Shown: in pieces, positions 19,278 through 62,018 of the stretch
Position numbering within the stretch: position 1 is the stretch's first letter
Layout: every line of letters begins with the position of its first letter
Virus record (IMG/VR): IMGVR_UViG_3300032294_002797
Coordinates: 1 to 64,000 of that record
Length of the DNA: 64,000 nt
DNA from: a virus
Direction: 5' to 3' (one strand)
Position numbers and translations under genes: made by a program
The notes under the pieces: model-generated
Database searches by the model: none
The model's input: only the letters and a program-made list of their open reading frames with translations
What the model was told of the DNA's origin: nothing

Positions 19278-19309
19278 GACTTAGTGAGTTGTACTACAGG
19301 AGTTCCATT

Positions 19310-19798
19310 ATGAAATGTATTAATTGTAATAAAGATACAGATAACCCTAAATTTTGCTCTAGATCATGCGGAGTGTCTTATAACAACAGAGTAAAACCAA
19401 AAAGAATTAAAAGAATGCAAACATGTATATTTTGTAAAAATCAATTTCATTCTTTACATAGTTATAATCAAAAATATTGTAATAAAAAATGTTTACAAAA
19501 TCATAGAGAGCACAATATCCAAACCAATGGTTTTGGAGAAGGTCATTATCATAATAATTCTATTAGAAAATACCTAATTAAAAAACATGGTAATCATTGT
19601 ATGATCTGTAACCAGTCTGGAGATAATTGGAACGGTAAGCCAATTACTTTAATTGTGGATCATATTGATGGTAAATCTAATAACAATAAACTAGATAACC
19701 TTAGAATTGTTTGTCCTAATTGCGATAGTCAACTACCTACATACAAAGCAAAAAACAAAGGAAATAGCACTCGTAGTTATTTTATAGTCCAAAAGTAA
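19310..19798 (+). CDS. HNH endonuclease with N-terminal zinc ribbon, inserted in tRNA cluster
   Basis: 162 aa. Starts MKCINCNKDTDNPKFCSRSC, a treble-clef-like zinc ribbon, with a second CIFCKNQF ... CNKKC site. C-terminal HNH: CMICNQSGDNW, then VDHIDGKSNNNKLDNLRIVCPNCDSQL, a well-conserved phage HNH core with both metal-binding CxxC pairs. The only plus-strand gene in the cluster, it lies between tRNA-Glu and tRNA-Ile and ends 3 nt from tRNA-Ile. Probably a free-standing homing endonuclease targeting tRNA genes; that target is inference. Confidence 0.9.
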   Translation: MKCINCNKDTDNPKFCSRSCGVSYNNRVKPKRIKRMQTCIFCKNQFHSLHSYNQKYCNKKCLQNHREHNIQTNGFGEGHYHNNSIRKYLIKKHGNHCMICNQSGDNWNGKPITLIVDHIDGKSNNNKLDNLRIVCPNCDSQLPTYKAKNKGNSTRSYFIVQK

Positions 19799-25491: not shown

Positions 25492-25519
25492 ATTATACCA
25501 TTCTTTATCGTCAAGTCAA
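25492..25519 (-). promoter_or_regulatory. Promoter of the 25476-24516 operon
   Basis: TTGACT, 16-bp spacer with ACGATA, TATAAT. Confidence 0.72.
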
Positions 25520-26268
25520 GTACCGACACACTGATAGTTTTACGAATAACACTCGGTACTATGTTAGTTCAACCTCAAGGTTTTACCTTATCTAAGGAAA
25601 CTATCAGCAGATTTATAACCAGCGAATCTTTTACGCCCCGATTCTATAATCCATATTAGCCTAAATACTCTAGTGCGAATATCTTCGGGAATATGGAAAC
25701 CGTCCACGGAACTCCTCCCTAGAATCGAGTTAAACTTCCGGAATGTTTTTCGATTCATCTGGCTCTTGGAAACGGTTACTGGTATATTTTATATGGCAGA
25801 GTTTTTAGCCTATCACAAAGGATGGGAAGGGCGAACTCTTTTAATCCTAACCTATTATCTAGGAACCATAATATTGTTTATGGGTGTCACCTATTTCTAC
25901 TCATGCTATCGCATTTTCGGAGGCCACATGGAAGGATCGTCACCGGTAACTCCTCTTCGCTCTGTTGTGCTTTGCCTCGTCATACGGAAAACCGTCACCC
26001 ATAAAGTATTGGTCGTGGTGAGGACGCTATCCCCCATAGATTGGTATTACTATACAGCATATAACCTTGCTGTCAACCCCGGCGATGATTACGTCTTCGC
26101 TGAACGGGAGGTTTATCGTAATAGGTTATCCAATCTAGTCCCTGAGCATGGACCCACGAAAGTTTGTCATAGTACGCTAGGTTTAGTGCTGCTTCTCTAT
26201 CCTAGCACGGCTTAGTATGATGTTATCTCTGGCACTCAACCGCTATGATTTGTTTTGTCTTACTCAGT
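25520..26268 (-). ncRNA. Candidate large structured non-coding RNA (GOLLD/ROOL-like)
   Basis: About 750 nt with its own CGATA promoter, no minus-strand reading frame of note, and dense pairing on the minus strand. A 3' domain is closed by a perfect 10-bp stem CTGATAGTTT/AAACTATCAG (25598-25607 with 25531-25540) enclosing CCTT-AGAT-AAGG (25586-25597) and AACC-TTGA-GGTT (25571-25582). Others: CCATAT/ATATGG (25691-25696 with 25651-25656), GAATCG/CGATTC (25751-25756 with 25722-25727), GCTAGG/CCTAGC (26201-26206 with 26176-26181). Large ornate RNAs such as GOLLD and ROOL occur in phages near tRNA clusters; I cannot confirm membership. Confidence 0.65.
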
Positions 26269-26269
26269 C

Positions 26270-26297
26270 ATTCTACAATATATTATCGACTTGTCAA
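26270..26297 (-). promoter_or_regulatory. Promoter of the candidate structured RNA
   Basis: TTGACA, 16-bp spacer with TCGATA, TAGAAT. Confidence 0.75.
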
Positions 26298-26419: not shown

Positions 26420-26902
26420 TTAGGTAGTTGCTTCTTCTGTATCGTCTTTGAAGAATTCTTCCATACCAAACTCATTCCACAATGCGACAGGAATCATATC
26501 CTTACTCGGATATTCCACATAGTTATCAGCACCATTATCCCAAATACCACAGAAAGCCATGCCCGGCTCCCAATAACTAGCCTTTACATCATATCCCAAC
26601 TCAACCAGTTTATCATACAAACCAATAGGAGGACTCCACGCACTATCAAACGAACAACTTACTTGGTTTCCTACCCTAGTAGCCTTCAAGCCGTGATATT
26701 CTTCCCTATCTGTACCCATATCGGCCCCAATATCCCATTTGGTTCCCCAATTATCTATTTGCCAGCCGTACCAATCTTCACCTTCTGGTAGAGGCAGAAA
26801 TTCTTCACAAGCCTTACCCAGATTATAGGCTTTCTCAAATCGGTCAACCATAGAAACATCAGTATGCTCAACCGTCAATTTATTCAAACACCAATTAGGC
26901 AT
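26420..26902 (-). CDS. Api92-like / DUF1281 ferredoxin-like protein
   Basis: 160 aa. Starts MPNWCLNKLTVEH and contains DNWGTKWDIGAD, then SCSFDSAWSPPIGLYDKLVEL and a WEPGMAFCGIW segment. These are the signature blocks (PNWC-N-L, NWGTKWD, F-x-TAWSPP) of the Api92-like ferredoxin-like family found in phages and plasmids; function unknown. Starts after AAAGGAAAAAAG. Confidence 0.88.
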   Translation of the reverse strand: MPNWCLNKLTVEHTDVSMVDRFEKAYNLGKACEEFLPLPEGEDWYGWQIDNWGTKWDIGADMGTDREEYHGLKATRVGNQVSCSFDSAWSPPIGLYDKLVELGYDVKASYWEPGMAFCGIWDNGADNYVEYPSKDMIPVALWNEFGMEEFFKDDTEEATT

Positions 26903-36174: not shown

Positions 36175-36360
36175 ATGAGTAATTCCAAAAAAATCACCAA
36201 TGTTGCTTCTGTGCTGTGTACTAAAGCTTCAGGATGTATCGAAAATATAGCGGATGATCTTAACCAACCAGATGGAAAGTGTATAGCAGAGCTTATAAAT
36301 GACCAAGAAAAATCTCAAGCCCAAGAAATGCCCATCAACACTTCCGAACAATGTAAATGA
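36175..36360 (+). CDS. Hypothetical protein, 61 aa
   Basis: ATG at 36175 (MSNSKKITNVASVLC). Acidic C-terminal half. First gene of the rightward operon; its end overlaps the sigma-like gene in another frame. Unassigned. Confidence 0.6.
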   Translation: MSNSKKITNVASVLCTKASGCIENIADDLNQPDGKCIAELINDQEKSQAQEMPINTSEQCK

Positions 36361-36955
36361 GCAAGAATTTTTGACAGTATTGGATAATATTAGTAAAAGA
36401 TTGGCCTATAAATTCCAGTTCGGCTATCATAGTTTTGAGGATATGAAACAGCAGGCAGCCATATTTGCTCTAGAAGGCCTGGAAAAATATGACAAAAAAC
36501 GCCCCTTAGAAAACTTCTTATGGACCCACGTAAGAAATAGGCTATTTAACTATAAACGAGATAATTATCAAAGACCCGATAAACCCTGTATTAGTTGTAG
36601 ATTTTTTGATAAACATTGTAAGAACTCTACTAATCAGTGTTTAGAATATACAAATAAAGATGACTGCGAAGAATATGCAGCATGGAATAATAGAAACTCT
36701 AGAAAAAAGAACATAATGAAACCGGTAGGAATAGACGATCTGTCTGAAAGTCTCACCAGTGGAAATGCCAAACATTCAATATTAGATATTGTAGCTAATG
36801 AACAAATAATCACCCTGTTAGACAAACATATTCCTGCACAATACAGAGAAACATACTTGAGATTGAAGCATGGAGATAAAGTCTATAAGTCAGATCTCGT
36901 TAAATTAACCAAAGTTATTAAAAATATTTTATCTGAAAATAATTATGACATCTAA
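36299..36955 (+). CDS. Sigma-70-family-like factor with Cys-rich insertion
   Basis: 218 aa. Residues about 35-88 (YHSFEDMKQQAAIFALEGLEKY and then RPLENFLWTHVRNRLFNYKRD) match sigma region 2.1-2.3 as in phage late sigma factors: an SFED-like start, A-x-x-A-L-x-x-Y-D, and an F-L-W/Y-T-H-V-R-N-R motif. A CISCRFFDKHC ... CLEY ... DDCEEY stretch follows, suggesting an inserted zinc site. The C-terminus could be a reduced region 4. Position at the head of the late operon supports a late-transcription role. The start could be at a later ATG. Confidence 0.8.
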   Translation: MTKKNLKPKKCPSTLPNNVNEQEFLTVLDNISKRLAYKFQFGYHSFEDMKQQAAIFALEGLEKYDKKRPLENFLWTHVRNRLFNYKRDNYQRPDKPCISCRFFDKHCKNSTNQCLEYTNKDDCEEYAAWNNRNSRKKNIMKPVGIDDLSESLTSGNAKHSILDIVANEQIITLLDKHIPAQYRETYLRLKHGDKVYKSDLVKLTKVIKNILSENNYDI

Positions 36956-47945: not shown

Positions 47946-50900
47946 ATGAGTATAGTATCCGTTCAAGAGCAATTTCAACCATCTAGATATCTTGTAATAT
48001 CTAATTTATCTAATTCACAAGAGATATCTACAACCAGAGTTCTAGTATCTGATTTAAGAACTAATACTATTAATTTGGTCACCATAGAAAAAGGTCCAGT
48101 CGGCGATACTGGACCACAAGGACCTAAAGGAGAACCCGGTAAAGATGGTTTAATTTTTAATGTATTGCCAATTACTAGTGGAGGTACCAATAATACTAAT
48201 TTTGATACCAATTATTTGATCTCATATGATGGAAATAAACTTGTTAGCTCTCCGTATACCGTTAATGATATAGTTAATCTGAGTAATGCTACTAATAATA
48301 GTATAACTGGTATAATAGCCGGTTCTGGAATACAACGCACAATCGGTCCCAATAATACTTCTATTTTAGATGTAAAAATCGGAGATGGTCTAAGAATTTC
48401 CAACTCTACTATTGTAGTAGATGATAGTGTCGTTAGAGCTACTGGCGTTAATATAAATCAATTGATCGGCACGCTCCCAATTTCTAAGGGAGGCACAAGT
48501 AATTCTTCGTATTCTGTTAATAGATTAATTTATTACAATGGTTCTAGTTTTAGTTCTTTTCCTTTGAATACTGGAAATATTGTAGTTAGCGGATCCACTA
48601 TAAATATTGTAGCTGGTTCTGGTCTTATTGGCGGAGGACTGACCACAGTACCAAACGGCACGGTGGTTTTGGAAATTGGTCCTTCTTCAGATATTTTAGT
48701 TGAAGAAAATTCTATATCTTTAACTCCTGTAGGATCTCCAGGAACATATACCAAAATTACGACAGATGATAAAGGAAGAGTCATATCTGGATCATCATTA
48801 ACTATTCAAGATATTATTGCATTGTTGGGATATACTCCTTGGCATGCCGGTAACGACGGAGAATCATCCGGACTGGATGCTGATTTATTAGATGGGAGGC
48901 ATGGATCTTTTTATCAAAATGCTAACAATTTATCTGGCACATTAAATTTAGATAGACTGCCCAATTTACACAGTCAATCCCAAGTAGGAACCAAATTTGT
49001 TATCAATACCAAAGGCCTGATAGAAGATGTATATCTCGCTGATTCTCAAGATATTATTTCTTCTCTTGGCTATAGGCCGCTAAATGCTGAATCAGATGAC
49101 ACAAAATTAGGATCATTAAATATTATTGGTAATTTAATTACTAGTGCTGGAGATGTTAGCCTATATGACAATCTTCCTCTGTTAGGTACAAACAGACCTA
49201 ATATATTACCCTCCGAGCCAAGAGGATTTACTTTTAATTATGGTGGATCTTTTACTAATAAAACAGGTATCTTAGCATATTATCCTACAGATAATCAACT
49301 TAGATTGATTACTAATATTTTTGGATCGGGTTCTAGTATAGATGCTAATGATATAAATCAGGACGATATTAATGGAGGAGATGCTCAATCTATTTATATA
49401 ATAGAGAATCTACAGGGAGATACTAGTACAGTTTTATTTAGAGAAATTGCAGATCAACTATATATTAGTACAAATACATCTCAAACTATATATGGCTTTA
49501 AAAGATTCTTAGCAGACTTAGAGGTTGCATCACAATTACGTATACTGGGAGACAATGCTACTCCTACTAGACCTCCGTTGTCTGTTGGTAATAATAATTT
49601 ATTAGTAACTAATTTAAATGCGGACTTATTAGATAATGCGCACGGATCATTTTATCGTAATGCAGCAAATATCACTGGGTCTTTTAGTTATAATAATGTT
49701 ACCTTTGATCACATTCAGGGCGAAAATAATTTTATACCTAAGTTTACAGATCCCAGAGAACCTTCTCGTCAAATCACAGCATCTAATATTTTACAAAGAT
49801 CTAATGGCGACATAGAAATTAGTAATGAAAGGAATCTGATTGTTGGACTAGATGATAATGTTACTGATAGTGCTTCTATTAATACGCTCACTGTTGGAGA
49901 AAACAATTTCACCAGTTCTGAAAATAGCATATCAATAGGTCAACATAATATATTAGCCGGCTTTAATTCTGCTACTATCGGCAGTCGCAATATGGCAAGT
50001 GGCGATAATTCTATTGCTACTAATTTAGGTTCTACTACCAGAAGTGATCAGTCAGTAGCTATGGGTTCTTATGGCATAACAGAGGTGCCTAACCAGTTTG
50101 CTTTTGGAGCTTTTAGAACAGTGGGTTCTGGTAATCAAATTTTGGAACACGGACAGTATTCAACTGTTGCAGCTTATTTAAGGGGCACAGAGACGGATGG
50201 TAATTGGCGCTCTATGACACCTATTATTAATTTACCTAAAGATAAAACTATAGCATTCAATATAGAACTATTAATTAATAAAGGTCTAAGTAGCGGTGTT
50301 GGACATTTTCTTTTTGAAAGTGGTATTATTAATAATGCAACCTATCGTAATCCTTTAAATATTACAGAAATACTAAATAGTACAACTGTTCCCAATAGCG
50401 GAACTAAAATACAAGTATTTAATAACTCTCAACTACGTAGACATTATCATTTTTGGAACTATACAAATCCAGTAAGACCAGAATCGCCAACCCGAGTCGG
50501 ACAATATATAAATTGTCTGGATGCTCCTAATAGAGAACTTGATATATCTATTCGACATTTACCTACTTATCATATGTATACTCCAACACAGGTACATATA
50601 AGTGGCATATTCGAAAAAACTTTTGATGGTAATCTCATTCTAGATGTATCTAAACCTAGATATAGCGGTATTTTTACCCAGTCGTTTACAAGTCCTCATA
50701 TCTCCATATACAGTAAAAATCATGGCGTGGTACAAGACTCAGAAGTAGATATAGAATTTGTAAGCAGCTCTAAATATTTTTTACCCAAAAAGAGATATAA
50801 AGCTCTGCTAAGTGGTCAAGACTCCTTTTTTGTATCATCACCAGAATGGAGAGGAGTCAAACAAACACTAAATAACGAAACTAAAATTTATATTCAAAAT

Positions 50901-53900
50901 ACTAGTGAATATAATAAATTATTTGCATTTGATTTTATTGCTTCTATTAGTAATAATATCATTACTTTACCCATCGGTACGGTAAATAATGCCGGCTATA
51001 GAATAGATCAAATTGCTAAAAATAATATGAATATTAAGCTTGTACAACCTTATTCTAATATAGCCTATAATCGAATTATACAATCTATTAGTGGCAATAA
51101 ATTATTTATTAACTATCCATTATACTCAGATAGTCCTAATCCACAACAATTTACTGGAGATATTCGTGTTATTCTAGATAATTACTCTTTTTTTGTATAT
51201 AAAGAATGCGATAGTCTTTATATTAATTCTGAGTTTCAAAATATCAAAGATGCAAAAGCCACAAATACTGCGCAGTTTTTCCCTGATGCGAGATTTTCAT
51301 TTGTAAATGACGGCGGATCAGGCACGGTGATCAATCCCCAAGATGCTCTTTTATACAGCAATCAAAATAATTCTATAGAGATAGCTGTTGATGATATTGA
51401 TCAAAATGGAATATTTGATTTAGATGATGTAACAAATGTGGCCACAAACAATAATCCTTTTATATTTTCTATATCTATACCATACAACATTACTAATATT
51501 TCAGATGGCTCCGTTGTTTCTGTAAGACCCGTTTTTAATAATAATACAGGAACATTAAATTTATATCATAGAAATACATATAATTGTAGTTATAGCTCTA
51601 CATACTCTGATCTCAATAAACATAGTGGCTGTTATATTAGATGGAAAGATGATAGTAATTATCACAGAATATCTATTTTTGATTCTGGAAATAAACCTGT
51701 CAATTTTATATCCAATCCTCCGTCATTTGAGTTATCTAACGGATATTTATCTGATAATAATAAATTTTTTAATATTCAACAAAGTGGTAATAGATATTAT
51801 TTATATACTAATACATCTTTTGATTATGAAACTAATAATATAATTCCCATTAGAGTTAAAGCATCATCACACAAAGATAATATTGCTCCTAATTTTGAAA
51901 AAATTCTTTATATCTATATACAGAATCAACAAGAAAATCCTTTAGTAGCTAAACCTATTGGTAATTTTAATATTTATGCTAATGATATTTTTGAATATAA
52001 TGTTCCTAGTGATACTTTTTCTGATTCAGATCATGGAGAACTAAAATATTCCGCAGAGATAAAAGGTGGACACTCCTTACCAAGATGGTTAGTATTTAAT
52101 AGCCAAACTATTAGTTTTAGCGGAACGCCGGATATATGCGATATAGGAGCTTATTCTATAGATTTAATAGCTACAGACGAAGATGGCTTGAGTATTACAG
52201 ATAATTTTATTATCGAGGTTGCCGATAATCCTGTATCAACCATGGAAGTCTTCGCTTATGACGTGAGCAATATTCTAAGAACAGAAAATATTTATCTTAC
52301 ACAAAATCATTTGGAGGAAAACGCACCTCCGGCTACACTTGTTGGAGAATTGCGTCATATCGGAGGATATAATCCATACATAACATTTTTGACTGCAGAA
52401 AATAATTTTTCCGGCATCTTGAATAAAAATAGCGATATCGTCACAAAATGTAAGCCCATTTTACAACATTATATCCCAGCATCTATATCAGGATCTCCAG
52501 AGTTTCTATCTATTTATTCTGATGTATCTCTTAAAGACAATCTTAACAATACTTTGGGATCTGGATATAAAGTAAAAAATGTATATAAGCCAACTATTTT
52601 TAGCGGAACACCTATTAATAATGGCAAAATTATTTTTGATAATACTAATTTTGATTATTCTGTATCTACATTATTTACAAATCAGTTATTACCCATGAGG
52701 AATGTTAATCCGTCTTTTGGTTCTAGGATGAGAATCGGCTCATTTAATGATTATAGCGCCACGTTGACGAATGGATTATTACAAGAAAAAAGAGGTTCAG
52801 ATATAGAGCTTATTTTGACCGAGAATAATGAAGTTATAAATCATAATATGAATGAACTTTTAATTTCTTATTATATTGAGGAAGAAGACCGATTTAATGA
52901 TATATGTTCAGAGAATGAAGTAGATAAATTAATATATACTAACTATCATGAATATAAAAATATTTCATGGTCCACCAAAAATATGTACTCTTGGTTATTC
53001 ACAGAGTCTGAAGATTCTAATTTGGTGCCAGAAAATAATGTTCTCCAGAACCTACAAAGCGAAAATATATCTAACCTAGAGAGTATTTCGTATCCACCCA
53101 CTTATACAAATATAGAATTATTAACAGAAAATTACGAGAATATAAATGATGAAGCTTATTTTTCATTAACGGATAATATTGTAGATTATGTGTGGTACTC
53201 TGATGATCCTATAAAAATTTATCGACAATTTCATAACAATATTGATAGATCTTTTATAGACAATAAGAGTCCTAATTATCCGCTAAATCCATTACAACAA
53301 TTATATTACAGTAATGATACTATAGGATTATTACAGTCAAATATAGATTATACTAGAGATAACAATCAATTAAATTATGCTCATGACTACTGGTATTTTG
53401 ATAAAGAACTTAATAATGCTGTCTTATATGTCGATAAATTAGGTTCTGATGATAATGCTCATTTTATTACAGAGCAACGCATTTATGCTGGAGCCTACAT
53501 TGATAGCGCCCCATATGAGTATGGTTTATTAATCACAGAGGATGGCCATGGAATTATTTCTAATACAAAAACTCATCATGGATCAAGAATAGAGTTATCT
53601 GATAGATATGAAATTTTGGAATCAATTAATATATTTAATGATAATGGCAAAATTTTTCTCGATTCTTCTATTGACTCTCTTCTTTGTGAAAATAACGATC
53701 TTGTAGTACACGACTATGCCATTAGCGCTAAGAGTGGTACGGCGTACATCCTATTTCCTGGTAAAAATAATCAGATTAAAATTAATTATCCTAATAGAGC
53801 ATCATTATCTGCTAATAGAATAGGTCATGGTCAACAGGGATATTATGAAGATCAACTGTCTCTATTACCCACAAGTCTAAAATTTACTGAACCAAACTTT

Positions 53901-56900
53901 TTCTATACCTGGGGTAAGCTTATTCCGTATAGACTTTATACAGATGAATATGCTATAAGACTTGATTCTGCTTATAGCGGAATATCTCAAAATGGCAAGA
54001 TTTGCTATTCTGGTAATATTCCTGATTCTGGACATTATTTTCCAGAAATTTTTCAGACCTATAACTTTACTACCTATACAGGTATTTGCCCGATACCTTC
54101 ATTATCTGGAGGCTTTAACGGCTTTGGTATCAGAGAAAATTATAATGATAATGGAGAGTATGTTACGGGACTAGTTACTTTTTATACGGATGTAACATCT
54201 TCTAAGATTTCTATTAGTGCTATAAATGATGAATTTAATTTAGATGAACGAAATACCGATTATCTCAGGATCTATAACCCGGTCACATCCGCGTATAATC
54301 CTCAATTGCCTAGAATAGATACTTATTTCGATATCGATATTTTATCTGACAAAGCTTTTTCTGTAGAAAATTTATTTTTATACCCATCCATATATAATAT
54401 TGTTCATTCCGGTAATATTTCTGTTAATCTAGATCGTAATCATAATCGTAAGAGCTATAGTCCTAAAATAGTAAATAGAATACCCATAGTTTTTGATACT
54501 GTCTATAATTCAAATCAAAATCGCTTACCAAAAAATAACTTTTTTGATATAGAGAGTATCAGCGGAAATAAAATCTACGTTAAGGATGACAGAAGCTATC
54601 TTCTTAAAGAAAGTATTTATCCTGATTATTTTAATCATGCTGTACGAGCATCCTATTTGACCAATGGTTGTTCATTTTTAGGATCTTTATTTCATAATAA
54701 TAATAAGATATATGATATAAGACCCAATTTAAATTTATTTGATCAAGTCTATAATAATGCTACTTTCGAATTTGACAAGAACAAAAAAGAACTCGCTATA
54801 AATTTACCTACTGGTCTTGTAAAAGTATTTGACAATATTGAACTATTCAATTTTGCTGCATTATCTCCTTATATGATTTTTGATACGTCTAAAGTCTACC
54901 ACACAGGCTTCACTGTATTGCAACAAAATATGTCTATCAGAAATACCGATCCCACTCCGGAACAAGATTTTATATTGATGGAAAGATCATTAACAGTTCT
55001 AGCTCCAGATAATATCGAAAGACTAACCTTCAATAGTGATATATTCAGTAATTCGGTGTCAGGGACATGTTCTATTTCGTCTAAATTAGCAAATAGACTT
55101 GCTACCGGATATTTATTAAACTACACAGACAATATATCTAATCAATCTGGTCACCAGGTGTTAAGTATTCAAAACGGATATCAATTATCTGGAGTTATTC
55201 CTCGTAATCATAATATTCTATCATCCACTGGAATTCTTCTAGATGACAGGCTGGGTTTTTCTAGTGTAATATCTACCGGATCTCCGATTCTACTTAGCGG
55301 AGTGAAAACACACAAGATCGTTGACTCCGATGATATTGGGTATACAGAATTTTATAGGATTAATGCCTCTGGATTCCCTGTTCATCACTTGTTATCTAGT
55401 GGTATTTATGGTAAAGGAACTGTTTCTTTGCCATATAAGATTTTTATAGATACAAGCGGATCCAGCACAAATACGAGAATGGTAGAACTTTTATATCTTG
55501 GACATAACCCTAATACTCTAAATTTTTATGGAGTATTGAGCACGTCCGGATCAATGGGAGATTTTTCTATCACACAAATAAAATTAGCTGATCAATTGCA
55601 CATCGATTATTTAAATAAATTAGGTGTTGTTTCCGGCGTAACTCCTGTGATAGATACCGGAACACTAGGCTATGATTCAAATATTAATTGGTCTATACCA
55701 GTTGATAGATATGATATCATTCAGTTGAGAATTGATCCTAATAATATGCCTTCTGGTAATAATGCTTGTTATTTATATGCATATATGCAAGATCCGGCTG
55801 ATCCCTTACCTCTTAAGCTAGATCATCCGTCGCTAGTTAATACTGGCATAGCATACTTTCCTTCTTATAAAGAGATAAATAAATCTTTATTTTATATTTT
55901 ACCAACTATTAATACTACAGTTAAATATTGTAATCTTAATCAACCATATAATAAAAATAATAATATATTTTATAATGGCAATATTATTCAGTTAACTCGC
56001 TTAGATTCTATTAAAAGTTTTCTTAATAAAAATGATCATATTAAATTACAAAAAATTAATGATGTAAATATTATTGGTGGATCGCATATCAATAAAATAA
56101 ATAACAGCAATGAGACCACTCATATAACAGGAATATCTATAGACGGAAAGATCGCCATACCTCCAAATCAATATATGTATGCTAGCAAAGCTTTGTTAGA
56201 AGACACAAACAGACATGTAGACGTATTCTCTACTGGTATTAACACTCGAACTCCTATATCTGGATACATCGATTTTGTAGGGTATAATTCCGGATCGTTT
56301 AACTTAATAGACTATAACAATCTTATAGTGCAGTCTCATGGAGGTTCTACTGCTAGGTGGCCCCAGGATACTGATGGGCATCTTGTTCCTCCTATATTTA
56401 CAGGTATATATTCTGTAGTAGATAATGGTACTTCATCGTGTACCTCTGGAAGATTATGTGTATCAATATCTGGATATAAAAATACTCCTATATCTGATTA
56501 TATGTTATTTGATAAATATTATTATTTTGATTTTATTGATGGTATGCCATCATCTAGTAATCTTTATAAAATTAAAGATAAATTATCATATCAAAAAATA
56601 TCTATAGATATACCATATGATACTAGTTTGATTAATAATTCTGGTCTAGTTTACATAATAGATAGTCACTTTAATATCAAGCCCCACCTGGATCCTAATT
56701 TAAATAATGCCTTTATAAGAAATGTTGCCACGCTTTCTAATGTAAATAATATTGATCTGCTGGAACATACTATACATGCATTTGACGACAGTACTAAAAA
56801 ATGGAACCATATCTTCCATCTGCCTCAAACATTACCAGCATTTTCATCTTATCCCATCTCTGTGTCCATAGGTTCTGCGTTACAATCTGGTAATATTGTC

Positions 56901-59900
56901 AATTATCCAGAAATTCCCAAAATAGGCATTCGTGATGTGTCGGTATTAAAAAATAGAGATTTTGCTATATTTAATCCTGTAACTAATAATATGTCGACCT
57001 ATACTGATACTGATGCGCTTACAGTGAGAGTTAGGATCAGCGGAGGTACTCCTCCATTAAATAGCAATATTTCTATTAATACTCCTAAGATATTTATTAG
57101 CGGAGTAGCGGAATATAGTTTTCTATATTTTGATAGTTTATATGGATATACATCATCTGGCTGGAATATAGGCATCAATATCTATCCGTTTAAAAATACT
57201 GGGGTGTTTCCTATAGCGATTGGTGTCTTTGATGAAACTGGTTCAGATTATAGATATCTTAATTTGAGTATTACTGAAAGACCTATGATAGTACCTACCT
57301 ATCCTACTGGGTATGCATCAGTAACTTCTCCTTATTGGAAGCTATATTTTGATGTTAAAGGTATAGATTTAGGAGTTAATAATCCTAACGATCAAGGATT
57401 ATTCGTTTACGGATCACCCAATGATTTCAGTTATGATTTTGTAAGACATTCATCTTCTGAGCTAGAGCTTATAGGCTATCCAGCTGGTGGTGGATTTTCT
57501 ACTGGTATTTGGAATCCAATAGTTATTGTCAATGATTTTAATAGCGGTCAAATAATAGCTTCGGGTAGTGGTTCTTTACATATATTATCTAGCTTAAATG
57601 ATAGACCTCCATATACTCCACATATTAATAATTTAAATACTAACACATATATAAATTTAGCAAAAGATGAAAATATATCATTTCAGGTGCCGGTTTACGA
57701 AACGGATCAGCAACACTCTTCTATCACCACATCAGTAAATGGAGGAGTATATTTTGGAACAACACGAATCTTTGCTGGTTTTGATCCTGGCCTAAACAGA
57801 TTTAACATAGAATATGTGCCGACTAACACCGGAAATACATCGTATTTATCAGAAACAGCTTATGCTGCTGATAGACTGGTCAATTTCTCGGTATCTCAAC
57901 CTATATATACAAATGGCAATCCGAGTTGGACTACTTATACTTCAGAAAATTATTTGACTAATTTTACTTTTTTCAGACCATTGCTTATAGATACTACTTT
58001 TACCAATACAGTGCCCGAATTTGAAATTGATAAACCGTGGGTATACGAATTTGCTATAGTAGAGGGAGTTTGCAAACATAGGCCCAATCTACCTCCAAGA
58101 GTAACATTATTTAATACTCCTAATTTTGGCACTATAACACACAGATATTTATCTTATAGTTTGTCTTATAGATATGATAATATTAATAAACTGTGGATCG
58201 TAACAGCGCAAGGTAAGCCAGACATATATGGTAAATATGCTCCGTCTACCGGTATATATACTATGAATATTTTTGCTGATGATACATACGGGAGCTATAG
58301 TCGTTCTTCATTCAATATCAAGTACATTCCCACTAATTCTATACAATATATTTTTCCTAATTTATACAATACTCCTAACAATGAATTTTTTATTCAAGCT
58401 GATATCAAGGAGCCAAATAGTGGGGTATACCCGAATATTACATTTGATGGTGAAAATACTATCGATATGAACTATGCTAATATGTACAAAAAGTATAATA
58501 AAGATTTGAATATCTGGGAGGTAGCTGGAACAGGTAATAAATTTGTACAGAAATGGGATTCTAGAATTTTAATAGATAAGACATCTATTAATCCTTCTAT
58601 CACTCTTCAATGCAAAGGCATAGCTACAGATAAGATTACGGCTGTGGCAAAAGTTAATTTACTAGAATTACAAAATACTAATAGAGATATTGTTATTGAT
58701 CAAGCAAAATCAATAAAAATTAGTGGCATTAAAAATTATACCAATCCAGAATCTGGAATTATTATTAAACAAGGTGACGAGCCGTGGACACTGGAATTTG
58801 ATACTATTTTTGGTTTGGAGTCACCATTACATCCTCCTACTATTATTTTACAAAACACTCCAACTTTTTGCACAGGATATGACCCTCGTTTAGATCCCAA
58901 ATATAGCGATGTAATCGATCCGAATTTACAAAATCCATGCTTGTCTTCATCTAGTCCATCTTTCAATGATAATCTTAAAACTTGGCATTTTAAGTTTTCT
59001 GGAGTGCCGTCGTGCTCCTTGTTGGGATCATTACCATTCACGATTACTGCCATAGATACAAATTTGGTATTAGAAAATCCATATATAGAACCACCAGATA
59101 TTGTAGATACTTTATTTACTTATGTTCCTATAGATATTCCTCATCCTGATCCCGTTGTACAAGATAAAGAGGATCCTCAGGAGCAACTATTACTCAAGCC
59201 GCTGTGTGATACATTTTATTTTCGTAAATTAAAATTCGGCCCCAAAGCAAGAGAACAATGTCCACAGCCAACTGGTTTAACTGGGATAATTATTAGCGGC
59301 AGTTTACCATCTGGCTTAAGCTATACTATTAATTATCCATCTTATTTATTAGATAATCCTTTTAACGCTCCGCTATATAATAACTTACAGAGTGGAGAAG
59401 TTATTATCCAAGGATATCCTTTGTCTTTTGCTCCCAATGGTGCTGCATACGATGAAACTTTCGGCATTACAGTGGTAGACGCAAGAAATAATAGCGGATC
59501 TAAGGTTCTAACTTTTAATCAGACAGTTTCTATCAATGATCCTAACATTAGCATAGCAGTTTACTTCGATAGTGATAAGCCGGTATTTACACCATCTACC
59601 GGACTACAAATTTTACCACTACAGGGAACGTATAGATGGAAACCAGAGCCTATTGTTGATGAATTAGAATGTCGTAGTATATTACCTAATAATACATGTC
59701 CAACTAAGATTATCCCATATAGTGGACAAGAAGAACCAGACTCACTTCTATTTTTGCTGATGAATGAAACTAATAATTTTGGTATCCAGTCAGAAGATCT
59801 TGTGATAGGGAATGAAGTTTATATCAGAATAAATCAAGATGTCAGTAATTCGAATAATGGAAGATATTCTTTAAAGAAAACTACTTCGAGTTTTCCTGGA

Positions 59901-62018
59901 TCTCCAGTTCCATCTAATCTGTGGTATGTAAATACAAAAGAAGCTTTTCAACCCAGAACCGGATTAGTTGATATTGTAGTAGGAAATTATAAATTTGAAA
60001 ATATCAGTGACTTGAATAATTTATTTAATGGAGATATACAATATAATTTTGGATGCTTATTGGGTAATGGATCCATAGGAAACGATGGACTGAACAATAA
60101 GCTGGGCATTAAAGGATATCTAAGTCCCGGTTTTAGCGGATATCTGCCCACAAATGGAGCATGGAAGTCGAATGATGTTAGATTAACAGGTCTACGTTTT
60201 ATAAATATTGATTCTTCTAATACTAGAACCAATATAGCATATACTAATTGCTGGGAAACAGGATATTTAAGGATCAGCGGAGTTGTATTGCCGAGGCCGT
60301 ATGTGGAAATAACGGATCCTCCACCAGCGGCTAATAATAATTTTAGTTGGGATGGTTCGTCTTTTGCTTTAGATACTAGACTATCATTTGGTAATACTCA
60401 GCTGGAAAGAGGCATCGTAGAAAATCTGCGTAATGGAACAGCAAACTACTTATTGACCAATATGTATACCAATCAAACAGAATTATCCGGCTCTCAGTCG
60501 ATATCCCTGACTAGCCCAGTGGCTATCAATTTAACATCTGCTATTTTGGGTAATGCCGCTCGTGGCACAGGCACTGTATTTAAATTAGACATAGAATCAC
60601 CATCTAATTCTACTTTTCCAACCTTTAATGTTCAGGCTAGGCCGGGTGCTATCCCATCCACATATTTCTGGGTACATAAGGCTACCGCTACACCAGTTAC
60701 AAAACCTTCTCAATCATCATTACCTCCTATTATCCCTTGCATACCTGAATATATTAGTATAGTTAGTGGAGATATTATTAATAATATTAGTCCATCTATT
60801 TATGGCATAGATGGTTCTGCATACGGAGGATACATTCCTCACGATATTTGTTTTCCAGAGCCTCCTACCTGCTCTAATAACGAATTATATTATACTAGCG
60901 GAGGATCTCCATGGTTAGCTAAGAATTATCTTCCCATTATATCTGGCATTATACTAGAGTCTATAAATACTAAAAATAATTTTAAAACCACAGGTAGTTA
61001 CAACTCTTCGGCTCAAACTGTTTTAATTAGCAATATCAATAATGTATTATTAGAGGGAAATCTAATAAATATAACAATTACCAAAACAGAATGGAATAAC
61101 GAGATAACTGTCGTTGATTCATTTATAACAGAGCTATCTTCAACCAATATAGTCGGAAATAATGTTGTATTCTATAATAAAATTTATACTAATATAGGAC
61201 AGAGCGCTTTGATGATAGATATTAAATTTCTAAATCAAATTAAAGATATAGATACTATTAATAATTTAGTTACTGTTTATCATAATAATCTAAATCTATC
61301 AATTAATGATAATATAGCCATGAGTTCTGTTAGTGGATCTACATCATTAAATGCTATCGATTCTCCTGGAGTGCCCTATATTGCCGTCATAGATAATACA
61401 GGATTAATAATTAGCACTAATCTATATAATAATTTCAACATAGGCAATTATGTAAATATATACAAAATCATAGAAGATAATATTAAAATTATGCCAAATA
61501 ATATATCTTCAGATCAAGAAGGTGTTTATGATTTCAAAATCTCTGGAAGAGCCAATATTTTATATGGTAACTATTTTTATCGTATTATGACTAAAGAAAA
61601 TATAAATATGCCTATATTTAGTAATATTAGTACAAATATTGTTCCTAAAAAATATGAAAAAGACATTCCTATGGTGGTTAGTAAGCCATTAGAGATACTG
61701 TCGGCCTCTGTTACTTGGCCTTCAGCATCTAATAGTTGGACTGTTACCCTAGAGATAGATGGGGGCAGACTGCCAGCTCTGTCTGAAACTATTGATGTCA
61801 GAATAGACCTAGATGGTACTGAAAATTATGTTCGCTGTGGGTTTAGAAGATTTCCTATAAATAAAGATAAAGATATATTTAATCCGATAAATAATACTAC
61901 TATTATTACTTTATCTTCTATTCCTAATACGGTGGATTGGGGTAACCAATCAGCATTTCATATTAGGGTTTCCGATAGCACCGGCACAGATACCGTACTT
62001 ATATTGAAGGATACATGA
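47946..62018 (+). CDS. Giant tail-fibre/adhesin-like protein, 4,690 aa
   Basis: One uninterrupted 14-kb frame. N-terminus: IEKGPVGDTGPQGPKGEPGK collagen-like repeat (residues about 50-75), then fibre repeats with ITSGGTNNT and ISKGGTSNS, two DADLLDGRHGSFY / NADLLDNAHGSFY units, and YadA-head-like NSISIGQHN, SATIGSRNMASGDNS and SVAMGSYG near 650-710. Near 1310-1430: cadherin/PIG-like domain (SDSDHGELKY, LVFNSQTISFSGTPD). Many FSGTPxNNG/ISGVP-type Ig-like units follow. No protease or enzyme domain seen. Probably host recognition or decoration of tail tip; the single frame may be processed. Confidence 0.85.
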   Translation: MSIVSVQEQFQPSRYLVISNLSNSQEISTTRVLVSDLRTNTINLVTIEKGPVGDTGPQGPKGEPGKDGLIFNVLPITSGGTNNTNFDTNYLISYDGNKLVSSPYTVNDIVNLSNATNNSITGIIAGSGIQRTIGPNNTSILDVKIGDGLRISNSTIVVDDSVVRATGVNINQLIGTLPISKGGTSNSSYSVNRLIYYNGSSFSSFPLNTGNIVVSGSTINIVAGSGLIGGGLTTVPNGTVVLEIGPSSDILVEENSISLTPVGSPGTYTKITTDDKGRVISGSSLTIQDIIALLGYTPWHAGNDGESSGLDADLLDGRHGSFYQNANNLSGTLNLDRLPNLHSQSQVGTKFVINTKGLIEDVYLADSQDIISSLGYRPLNAESDDTKLGSLNIIGNLITSAGDVSLYDNLPLLGTNRPNILPSEPRGFTFNYGGSFTNKTGILAYYPTDNQLRLITNIFGSGSSIDANDINQDDINGGDAQSIYIIENLQGDTSTVLFREIADQLYISTNTSQTIYGFKRFLADLEVASQLRILGDNATPTRPPLSVGNNNLLVTNLNADLLDNAHGSFYRNAANITGSFSYNNVTFDHIQGENNFIPKFTDPREPSRQITASNILQRSNGDIEISNERNLIVGLDDNVTDSASINTLTVGENNFTSSENSISIGQHNILAGFNSATIGSRNMASGDNSIATNLGSTTRSDQSVAMGSYGITEVPNQFAFGAFRTVGSGNQILEHGQYSTVAAYLRGTETDGNWRSMTPIINLPKDKTIAFNIELLINKGLSSGVGHFLFESGIINNATYRNPLNITEILNSTTVPNSGTKIQVFNNSQLRRHYHFWNYTNPVRPESPTRVGQYINCLDAPNRELDISIRHLPTYHMYTPTQVHISGIFEKTFDGNLILDVSKPRYSGIFTQSFTSPHISIYSKNHGVVQDSEVDIEFVSSSKYFLPKKRYKALLSGQDSFFVSSPEWRGVKQTLNNETKIYIQNTSEYNKLFAFDFIASISNNIITLPIGTVNNAGYRIDQIAKNNMNIKLVQPYSNIAYNRIIQSISGNKLFINYPLYSDSPNPQQFTGDIRVILDNYSFFVYKECDSLYINSEFQNIKDAKATNTAQFFPDARFSFVNDGGSGTVINPQDALLYSNQNNSIEIAVDDIDQNGIFDLDDVTNVATNNNPFIFSISIPYNITNISDGSVVSVRPVFNNNTGTLNLYHRNTYNCSYSSTYSDLNKHSGCYIRWKDDSNYHRISIFDSGNKPVNFISNPPSFELSNGYLSDNNKFFNIQQSGNRYYLYTNTSFDYETNNIIPIRVKASSHKDNIAPNFEKILYIYIQNQQENPLVAKPIGNFNIYANDIFEYNVPSDTFSDSDHGELKYSAEIKGGHSLPRWLVFNSQTISFSGTPDICDIGAYSIDLIATDEDGLSITDNFIIEVADNPVSTMEVFAYDVSNILRTENIYLTQNHLEENAPPATLVGELRHIGGYNPYITFLTAENNFSGILNKNSDIVTKCKPILQHYIPASISGSPEFLSIYSDVSLKDNLNNTLGSGYKVKNVYKPTIFSGTPINNGKIIFDNTNFDYSVSTLFTNQLLPMRNVNPSFGSRMRIGSFNDYSATLTNGLLQEKRGSDIELILTENNEVINHNMNELLISYYIEEEDRFNDICSENEVDKLIYTNYHEYKNISWSTKNMYSWLFTESEDSNLVPENNVLQNLQSENISNLESISYPPTYTNIELLTENYENINDEAYFSLTDNIVDYVWYSDDPIKIYRQFHNNIDRSFIDNKSPNYPLNPLQQLYYSNDTIGLLQSNIDYTRDNNQLNYAHDYWYFDKELNNAVLYVDKLGSDDNAHFITEQRIYAGAYIDSAPYEYGLLITEDGHGIISNTKTHHGSRIELSDRYEILESINIFNDNGKIFLDSSIDSLLCENNDLVVHDYAISAKSGTAYILFPGKNNQIKINYPNRASLSANRIGHGQQGYYEDQLSLLPTSLKFTEPNFFYTWGKLIPYRLYTDEYAIRLDSAYSGISQNGKICYSGNIPDSGHYFPEIFQTYNFTTYTGICPIPSLSGGFNGFGIRENYNDNGEYVTGLVTFYTDVTSSKISISAINDEFNLDERNTDYLRIYNPVTSAYNPQLPRIDTYFDIDILSDKAFSVENLFLYPSIYNIVHSGNISVNLDRNHNRKSYSPKIVNRIPIVFDTVYNSNQNRLPKNNFFDIESISGNKIYVKDDRSYLLKESIYPDYFNHAVRASYLTNGCSFLGSLFHNNNKIYDIRPNLNLFDQVYNNATFEFDKNKKELAINLPTGLVKVFDNIELFNFAALSPYMIFDTSKVYHTGFTVLQQNMSIRNTDPTPEQDFILMERSLTVLAPDNIERLTFNSDIFSNSVSGTCSISSKLANRLATGYLLNYTDNISNQSGHQVLSIQNGYQLSGVIPRNHNILSSTGILLDDRLGFSSVISTGSPILLSGVKTHKIVDSDDIGYTEFYRINASGFPVHHLLSSGIYGKGTVSLPYKIFIDTSGSSTNTRMVELLYLGHNPNTLNFYGVLSTSGSMGDFSITQIKLADQLHIDYLNKLGVVSGVTPVIDTGTLGYDSNINWSIPVDRYDIIQLRIDPNNMPSGNNACYLYAYMQDPADPLPLKLDHPSLVNTGIAYFPSYKEINKSLFYILPTINTTVKYCNLNQPYNKNNNIFYNGNIIQLTRLDSIKSFLNKNDHIKLQKINDVNIIGGSHINKINNSNETTHITGISIDGKIAIPPNQYMYASKALLEDTNRHVDVFSTGINTRTPISGYIDFVGYNSGSFNLIDYNNLIVQSHGGSTARWPQDTDGHLVPPIFTGIYSVVDNGTSSCTSGRLCVSISGYKNTPISDYMLFDKYYYFDFIDGMPSSSNLYKIKDKLSYQKISIDIPYDTSLINNSGLVYIIDSHFNIKPHLDPNLNNAFIRNVATLSNVNNIDLLEHTIHAFDDSTKKWNHIFHLPQTLPAFSSYPISVSIGSALQSGNIVNYPEIPKIGIRDVSVLKNRDFAIFNPVTNNMSTYTDTDALTVRVRISGGTPPLNSNISINTPKIFISGVAEYSFLYFDSLYGYTSSGWNIGINIYPFKNTGVFPIAIGVFDETGSDYRYLNLSITERPMIVPTYPTGYASVTSPYWKLYFDVKGIDLGVNNPNDQGLFVYGSPNDFSYDFVRHSSSELELIGYPAGGGFSTGIWNPIVIVNDFNSGQIIASGSGSLHILSSLNDRPPYTPHINNLNTNTYINLAKDENISFQVPVYETDQQHSSITTSVNGGVYFGTTRIFAGFDPGLNRFNIEYVPTNTGNTSYLSETAYAADRLVNFSVSQPIYTNGNPSWTTYTSENYLTNFTFFRPLLIDTTFTNTVPEFEIDKPWVYEFAIVEGVCKHRPNLPPRVTLFNTPNFGTITHRYLSYSLSYRYDNINKLWIVTAQGKPDIYGKYAPSTGIYTMNIFADDTYGSYSRSSFNIKYIPTNSIQYIFPNLYNTPNNEFFIQADIKEPNSGVYPNITFDGENTIDMNYANMYKKYNKDLNIWEVAGTGNKFVQKWDSRILIDKTSINPSITLQCKGIATDKITAVAKVNLLELQNTNRDIVIDQAKSIKISGIKNYTNPESGIIIKQGDEPWTLEFDTIFGLESPLHPPTIILQNTPTFCTGYDPRLDPKYSDVIDPNLQNPCLSSSSPSFNDNLKTWHFKFSGVPSCSLLGSLPFTITAIDTNLVLENPYIEPPDIVDTLFTYVPIDIPHPDPVVQDKEDPQEQLLLKPLCDTFYFRKLKFGPKAREQCPQPTGLTGIIISGSLPSGLSYTINYPSYLLDNPFNAPLYNNLQSGEVIIQGYPLSFAPNGAAYDETFGITVVDARNNSGSKVLTFNQTVSINDPNISIAVYFDSDKPVFTPSTGLQILPLQGTYRWKPEPIVDELECRSILPNNTCPTKIIPYSGQEEPDSLLFLLMNETNNFGIQSEDLVIGNEVYIRINQDVSNSNNGRYSLKKTTSSFPGSPVPSNLWYVNTKEAFQPRTGLVDIVVGNYKFENISDLNNLFNGDIQYNFGCLLGNGSIGNDGLNNKLGIKGYLSPGFSGYLPTNGAWKSNDVRLTGLRFINIDSSNTRTNIAYTNCWETGYLRISGVVLPRPYVEITDPPPAANNNFSWDGSSFALDTRLSFGNTQLERGIVENLRNGTANYLLTNMYTNQTELSGSQSISLTSPVAINLTSAILGNAARGTGTVFKLDIESPSNSTFPTFNVQARPGAIPSTYFWVHKATATPVTKPSQSSLPPIIPCIPEYISIVSGDIINNISPSIYGIDGSAYGGYIPHDICFPEPPTCSNNELYYTSGGSPWLAKNYLPIISGIILESINTKNNFKTTGSYNSSAQTVLISNINNVLLEGNLINITITKTEWNNEITVVDSFITELSSTNIVGNNVVFYNKIYTNIGQSALMIDIKFLNQIKDIDTINNLVTVYHNNLNLSINDNIAMSSVSGSTSLNAIDSPGVPYIAVIDNTGLIISTNLYNNFNIGNYVNIYKIIEDNIKIMPNNISSDQEGVYDFKISGRANILYGNYFYRIMTKENINMPIFSNISTNIVPKKYEKDIPMVVSKPLEILSASVTWPSASNSWTVTLEIDGGRLPALSETIDVRIDLDGTENYVRCGFRRFPINKDKDIFNPINNTTIITLSSIPNTVDWGNQSAFHIRVSDSTGTDTVLILKDT

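Follow-up and report, generated by a model that had tools for sequence, protein, structure and literature searches.

A candidate new class of large, modular noncoding RNA encoded by uncultivated large phages

The window, that is, the whole stretch of 64,000 nucleotides analysed here, comes from a virus record of 223,302 bases. The minus strand of the window from 26263 to 25520 is confirmed by comparative sequence analysis as a structured noncoding RNA gene of about 740 nt (25520-26263, both ends being predicted), which lies among small minus-strand genes and about 3-7 kb from tRNA genes. A sequence-only reading had already proposed a large structured RNA with its own promoter at this place, near a tRNA cluster and with no gene on the minus strand, and these proposals are borne out: the only minus-strand open reading frames listed in the region have 56 and 43 codons, and the RNA gene is preceded by a sigma-70-type promoter (26270-26297, minus strand) that matches the consensus at 11 of 12 positions, with TTGACA as -35 box (26297-26292), a 16-nt spacer and TAGAAT as -10 box (26275-26270). 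Transcription would be expected to start near 26263. Promoters with at least 11 of 12 matches were found within 330 nt upstream of the conserved core of the RNA (described below) in 62 of 64 relatives, compared to 7 of 1280 shuffled sequences. At the other end, the promoter of the next gene (25492-25519, minus strand, TTGACT-16-TATAAT) begins at the base following the RNA, which suggests that the RNA is a separate transcription unit; the boundary of 25520 chosen in the earlier reading is the base preceding the -35 box of this promoter (25519). The 3' end of the RNA in the window is placed by prediction, since it showed no intrinsic terminator. The upstream neighbour (26420-26902, minus strand) encodes a protein of 160 residues (MPNWC...), and other genes take its place in some relatives. 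The interval between this gene and the RNA holds a hairpin-rich intergenic element of about 140 nt that ends at the -10 box (26412-26270) and is found at many sites in L082-L110; these recurrent elements seem to form a common promoter cassette for many small genes.

Judged from its sequence, the RNA is assembled from modules in series, most of them separated by linkers resembling ACAAUACAA. This build and its shuffling, the pseudoknots and the tRNA-like modules of relatives, all described below, had escaped the sequence-only reading. The linker AAUACAA occurs 115 times in 27.6 kb, where 2.2 occurrences are expected, and each module inspected has its own closing helix. In the window the order is a-CORE-g-h-3' domain-tail, all on the minus strand. 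Module a, the 5' accessory module (26167-26248), is closed by UCAUAG/CUAUGA, a helix read by eye, its copies being too similar for covariation; it is also present in L094, L154 and L097. The core module (26006-26167, 162 nt) consists of helices P1 to P6 and a pseudoknot, which in the window are P1 CGUGG/CCACG, the P2 hairpin GUC/GAC, P3 UAGAUUGG/CCAAUCUA, P4 AACC/GGUU, P5 ACAGC/GCUGU, the pseudoknot AUAACC/GGUUAU and the P6 hairpin. In this model the topology of the core is cloverleaf-like, formed by P1, the P2 hairpin, the P3 arm and the P6 hairpin. Module g (25878-26005), closed by UUUAUGGGUG/CACCCAUAAA, is shared with L165, L090, L048 and L144, and module h (25793-25870), closed by UAUGG/CCAUA, with L165, L154 and L094. 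The 3' domain (25618-25783) is closed by ACCAG/CUGGU and contains the helices AACCGU/ACGGUU and GAAUC/GAUUC.

The last element, the tail module (25520-25607), is an H-type pseudoknot and contains the 10-bp stem noticed in the sequence-only reading together with its two tetraloop hairpins, all of them present at 25607-25531. Its helix 1 pairs CUGAUAGUUU (25607-25598) with AAACUAUCAG (25540-25531) and encloses the hairpins CCUU-AGAU-AAGG and AACC-UUGA-GGUU, and its helix 2, formed by GUACCGA (25559-25553) and UCGGUAC (25526-25520), crosses helix 1. By eye, helix 2 covaries, being GUACCAC/GUGGUAC in L132 and L154 and UACCAAG/CUUGGUA in L183. We considered that the stem might lie outside the RNA, as it is missing from most relatives and occurs without a core in L091; this was rejected, since it is an optional tail module in further members. 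In many relatives, a tRNA-like element lies inside the tail; those of L087, L148 and L129 exceed the Rfam cut-off for tRNA, and ARAGORN assigned unusable anticodons to the tRNA-like elements of L087 and L107. Another tRNA-like module is found 5' of the core in L154, where it exceeds the same cut-off, and in others. Modules T and W of the relatives are the only ones that score as tRNA. The modules of the window's own RNA include no tRNA-like one, and neither ARAGORN nor the Rfam tRNA and tmRNA models made a call in 25520-26268, core and 3' domain included.

Relatives were gathered by searching with the upstream protein and, next, with short motifs of the conserved region, yielding 73 distinct core sequences from uncultivated phage contigs; one core match lies on a contig of 4.6 kb that belongs to a bacterial MAG with Lanier in its title. 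With a covariance model of the core, the matches within any one genome fell at a single locus, where one genome has the core duplicated in tandem. When records of at least 150 kb were picked by their terminase alone, six of seven carried the core and one record of 192 kb was without it. A nucleotide search among named phages gave no match to the window DNA, and identity to the terminases of named phages is at best about 26%. Transfer RNA genes lie within a few kb of the RNA in most relatives. It should also be noted that Pistol self-cleaving ribozymes are found near a tRNA-Arg gene in two relatives (L123 5432-5494 and L087 9613-9675; Rfam scores of 55.7 and 53.7 bits, respectively).

Covariation in the core was assessed on 57 cores (52 distinct) with a seven-helix model of 35 pairs. 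Pairing is kept in 97.8% of the cells and changes on both sides are seen in 16 of the 35 pairs; the covariation score is 0.263 compared to 0.132 in shuffled alignments, with none of 500 shuffles reaching the observed value, and slid controls of the model are 28-42% paired, controls that are to be read bearing in mind that, here as for the 3' domain, the aligned sequences are kin and non-independent and the structures were derived from the same sequences. The 7-bp pseudoknot (AUAACC or AUAAGCC with GGUUAU or GGCUUAU) is kept by compensatory changes, and variants were also observed for P3 (GAUUGG/CCAAUC, GAUUAG/CUAAUC and GAUAGG/CCUAUC) and P5 (CAGC/GCUG, CAAC/GUUG and CACU/AGUG). An independent RNAalifold run recovered most of P1, P2, P3 and P5. 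In the 3' domain, computed on its constant parts joined together, 98.7% of the cells are paired and both sides changed in 7 of 16 pairs. The cells include 80 G-U and 2 A-C combinations, an excess which indicates that the minus-strand RNA is the target of selection. The single-sequence folding energy gave z = -1.03 for the minus strand and -0.83 for the plus strand, values that chance could produce; this measure is uninformative where an RNA is modular and pseudoknotted, and it is conservation and covariation that establish the large structured RNA that had been proposed.

Profile searches detected at least 17 accessory modules apart from the core and the 3' domain, a build of two fixed parts and rotating accessories that we did not find in the literature consulted. 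The 63 complete arrays fall into 36 architectures, in all of which the core precedes the 3' domain; they include c-CORE-k-CORE-j-3'domain-tail-W in L148 and T-V-d-CORE-U-3'domain in L134. Modules g and k occur both 5' and 3' of the core (g is 5' of it in L146). The 3' part of the 3' domain is present in 52 of 61 core arrays. A few records, some truncated by contig ends, have a 3' domain without a detected core (L101/L233, L225, L227, L230, L237, L239 and L243); in these the core may have diverged beyond detection, been substituted or been cut off with the contig.

The identities of the core and of the 3' domain are uncorrelated across 47 members (r = 0.10), and among 46 pairs with cores more than 95% alike, 25 have 3' domains less than 75% alike. 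The window shares 98% of its core with L092 and differs from it in the 5' modules, and it has a module a identical to that of L094 with cores 78-86% alike. Near-identical modules beside diverged cores, and the reverse, are best explained by exchange of modules between phages, mostly at the linkers resembling ACAAUACAA, rather than by simple loss. It is a tentative proposal, to which we give slightly less than an even chance, that these phages assemble and reshuffle RNA modules that fold independently, tRNA-like ones among them, through recombination at the short conserved linkers, and thus possess a diversifying RNA machine. If true, this would make a domain-shuffled natural RNA comparable to modular proteins. 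Since its modules are exchanged naturally, the RNA family is also a ready-made experiment on the roles of the parts.

Several observations were made in passing on these elements. L094 has a small open reading frame apparently inserted within the RNA gene, between a second, partial core and module h. The window carries a second, smaller structured RNA (24317-24140, minus strand) made of module c alone (24273-24195), which has its own promoter (TTGACA..TATACT) and is followed by an AAUCC-UACG-GGAUU hairpin; this standalone RNA lies about 1-3 kb downstream of the large RNA in many relatives, and by eye its closing helices covary. Inside the tRNA cluster and on the opposite strand, positions 19289-19798 (plus strand) encode a protein with a weak match to HNH_3, below the Pfam cut-off, which might possibly be an agent of local recombination.

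To place the RNA among known families, the region was scanned with all families of Rfam 15, and none matched at the gathering score, GOLLD and ROOL included; permissive filters up to E = 10 gave merely three unrelated sub-threshold matches, and 12 relatives scanned with Rfam gave no large-RNA match. We take GOLLD to be RF02032 and ROOL to be RF03087, the accessions RF01998 and RF02032 proposed earlier for them looking wrong, a mix-up without consequence since the scan took in every Rfam family. The models of group I and group II introns and of other known ribozymes likewise found no match in the region, and a group I intron, considered for the resemblance of GACUAGA to the R element, was rejected as having no Rfam match. 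The sequence-only reading had left open a diverged member of GOLLD or ROOL or a new class; of these, the membership is not upheld and the new class is, as by every test available here the RNA would stand outside both families. A literature search also returned no RNA matching it, a finding of little weight as most subscription papers lie outside its coverage.

According to excerpts of one study (PMC12286853), GOLLD is phage-encoded, in many cases longer than 800 nt and located near tRNA genes, with a conserved 3' region, a less conserved 5' region and sometimes tRNAs in the linker; ROOL is described there as a phage or prophage RNA, 659 nt long in the solved example, often near tRNA islands and with several pseudoknots, and both are reported to form RNA-only cages of unknown purpose (PMC12286853). 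The window RNA resembles GOLLD in being phage-encoded, large and near tRNA genes, but it has no Rfam match, no visible fold in common with GOLLD, and accessory modules that are shuffled while the order of core then 3' domain stays fixed. It similarly resembles ROOL as a phage RNA near tRNAs with pseudoknots, whereas it lacks an Rfam match here too and has exchangeable modules, which are absent from the description of ROOL in those excerpts (PMC12286853). Regarding tRNA itself, the likeness lies in the cloverleaf-like core, in the UGCGA-type, T-loop-like P6 of the variants L048, L087 and L110 and in modules W and T; by contrast, the P3 arm of the core has a pseudoknot, and CCA, anticodon and any ARAGORN or Rfam call are lacking. 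To the very small number of large ornate RNAs known from bacteria, the window RNA adds a class with no Rfam relative. Large ornate phage RNAs near tRNAs were already known, and it is the combinatorial build that is new to our knowledge. With the tRNA-like modules and the tRNA neighbourhood, the latter shared with GOLLD and ROOL, it becomes possible to test for a link between tRNA biology and the giant RNAs of phages.

We consider it likely that this is a large noncoding RNA gene of a new class, belonging to a clade of uncultivated large phages, whose product works in trans, serving as a structural particle or scaffold; by analogy with GOLLD and ROOL, it would most plausibly be a similar RNA particle with a structural role. 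What chiefly speaks for action in trans is that the RNA is not tied to one gene, since the flanking genes vary between relatives on both sides. The host RNA polymerase would transcribe it early in infection along with the neighbouring small genes, its modules would fold independently of each other, and the RNA would work alone, as an oligomer or with protein. The core and the 3' domain would be the constant working parts and the remaining modules variable adaptors; in relatives with tRNA-like modules, host tRNA-processing enzymes may trim the RNA.

The RNA could instead be a cis-acting 5' leader that controls the translation, stability or processing of the following gene, which we judge unlikely. 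In 18 of the 63 arrays (L106, L128, L150 and L196, for example) a ribosome site and an ATG follow the 3' end with no intervening promoter, so that a leader role is possible there; the missing terminator in the window also speaks for a leader. However, a new promoter comes before any gene start in 35 of the 63 arrays, the window with its promoter at the very next base among them, which also supports action in trans; moreover, the downstream genes belong to several unrelated families, and the RNA occupies a single locus despite the abundance of similar small genes in these phages.

Rather improbable, too, is a decoy array, whose tRNA-like and other modules would titrate tRNA-processing enzymes of the host or defence nucleases that cut tRNA, with an arms race driving the shuffling. 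The tRNA-like modules above the Rfam cut-off that flank the RNA in L087, L148, L129 and L154, some of them with unusable anticodon loops, and the fast turnover of modules agree with it, as does the action of phage tRNAs against tRNA-targeting defence reported in two studies (PMC10264068, PMC11555353); but the window RNA has no such module, and neither ARAGORN nor Rfam identifies the constant core and 3' domain as tRNA. A cis-acting DNA element (an origin, or a recombination or packaging site) whose palindromes merely look like RNA would account for the single locus per genome and for modules that act like recombining cassettes; it is very doubtful nevertheless, given the strong strand asymmetry of the G-U and A-C counts, the promoter oriented to read the region in nearly all relatives and the compensatory changes that preserve the pseudoknot. 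Finally, a protein-coding region can practically be dismissed: the 180-codon plus-strand frame, whose translation under purifying selection the sequence-only reading had named among the observations that would speak against an RNA, is open in the window, but its homologue is interrupted by stop codons in 43 of 57 core rows, 26 of 56 core length differences are not multiples of three, substitutions in the core show no codon-position bias, and open reading frame lengths across the RNA family are about those of shuffled sequence.

Elsewhere in the window, a plus-strand gene at 36299-36955 encodes a protein in which a sigma-70 region 2 domain scores 26.2 bits (cut-off 24), possibly a phage sigma factor, and a giant structural or adhesion protein is probably encoded at 47946-62018 (plus strand), where one open reading frame runs for 4690 codons and begins with a collagen-like stretch.
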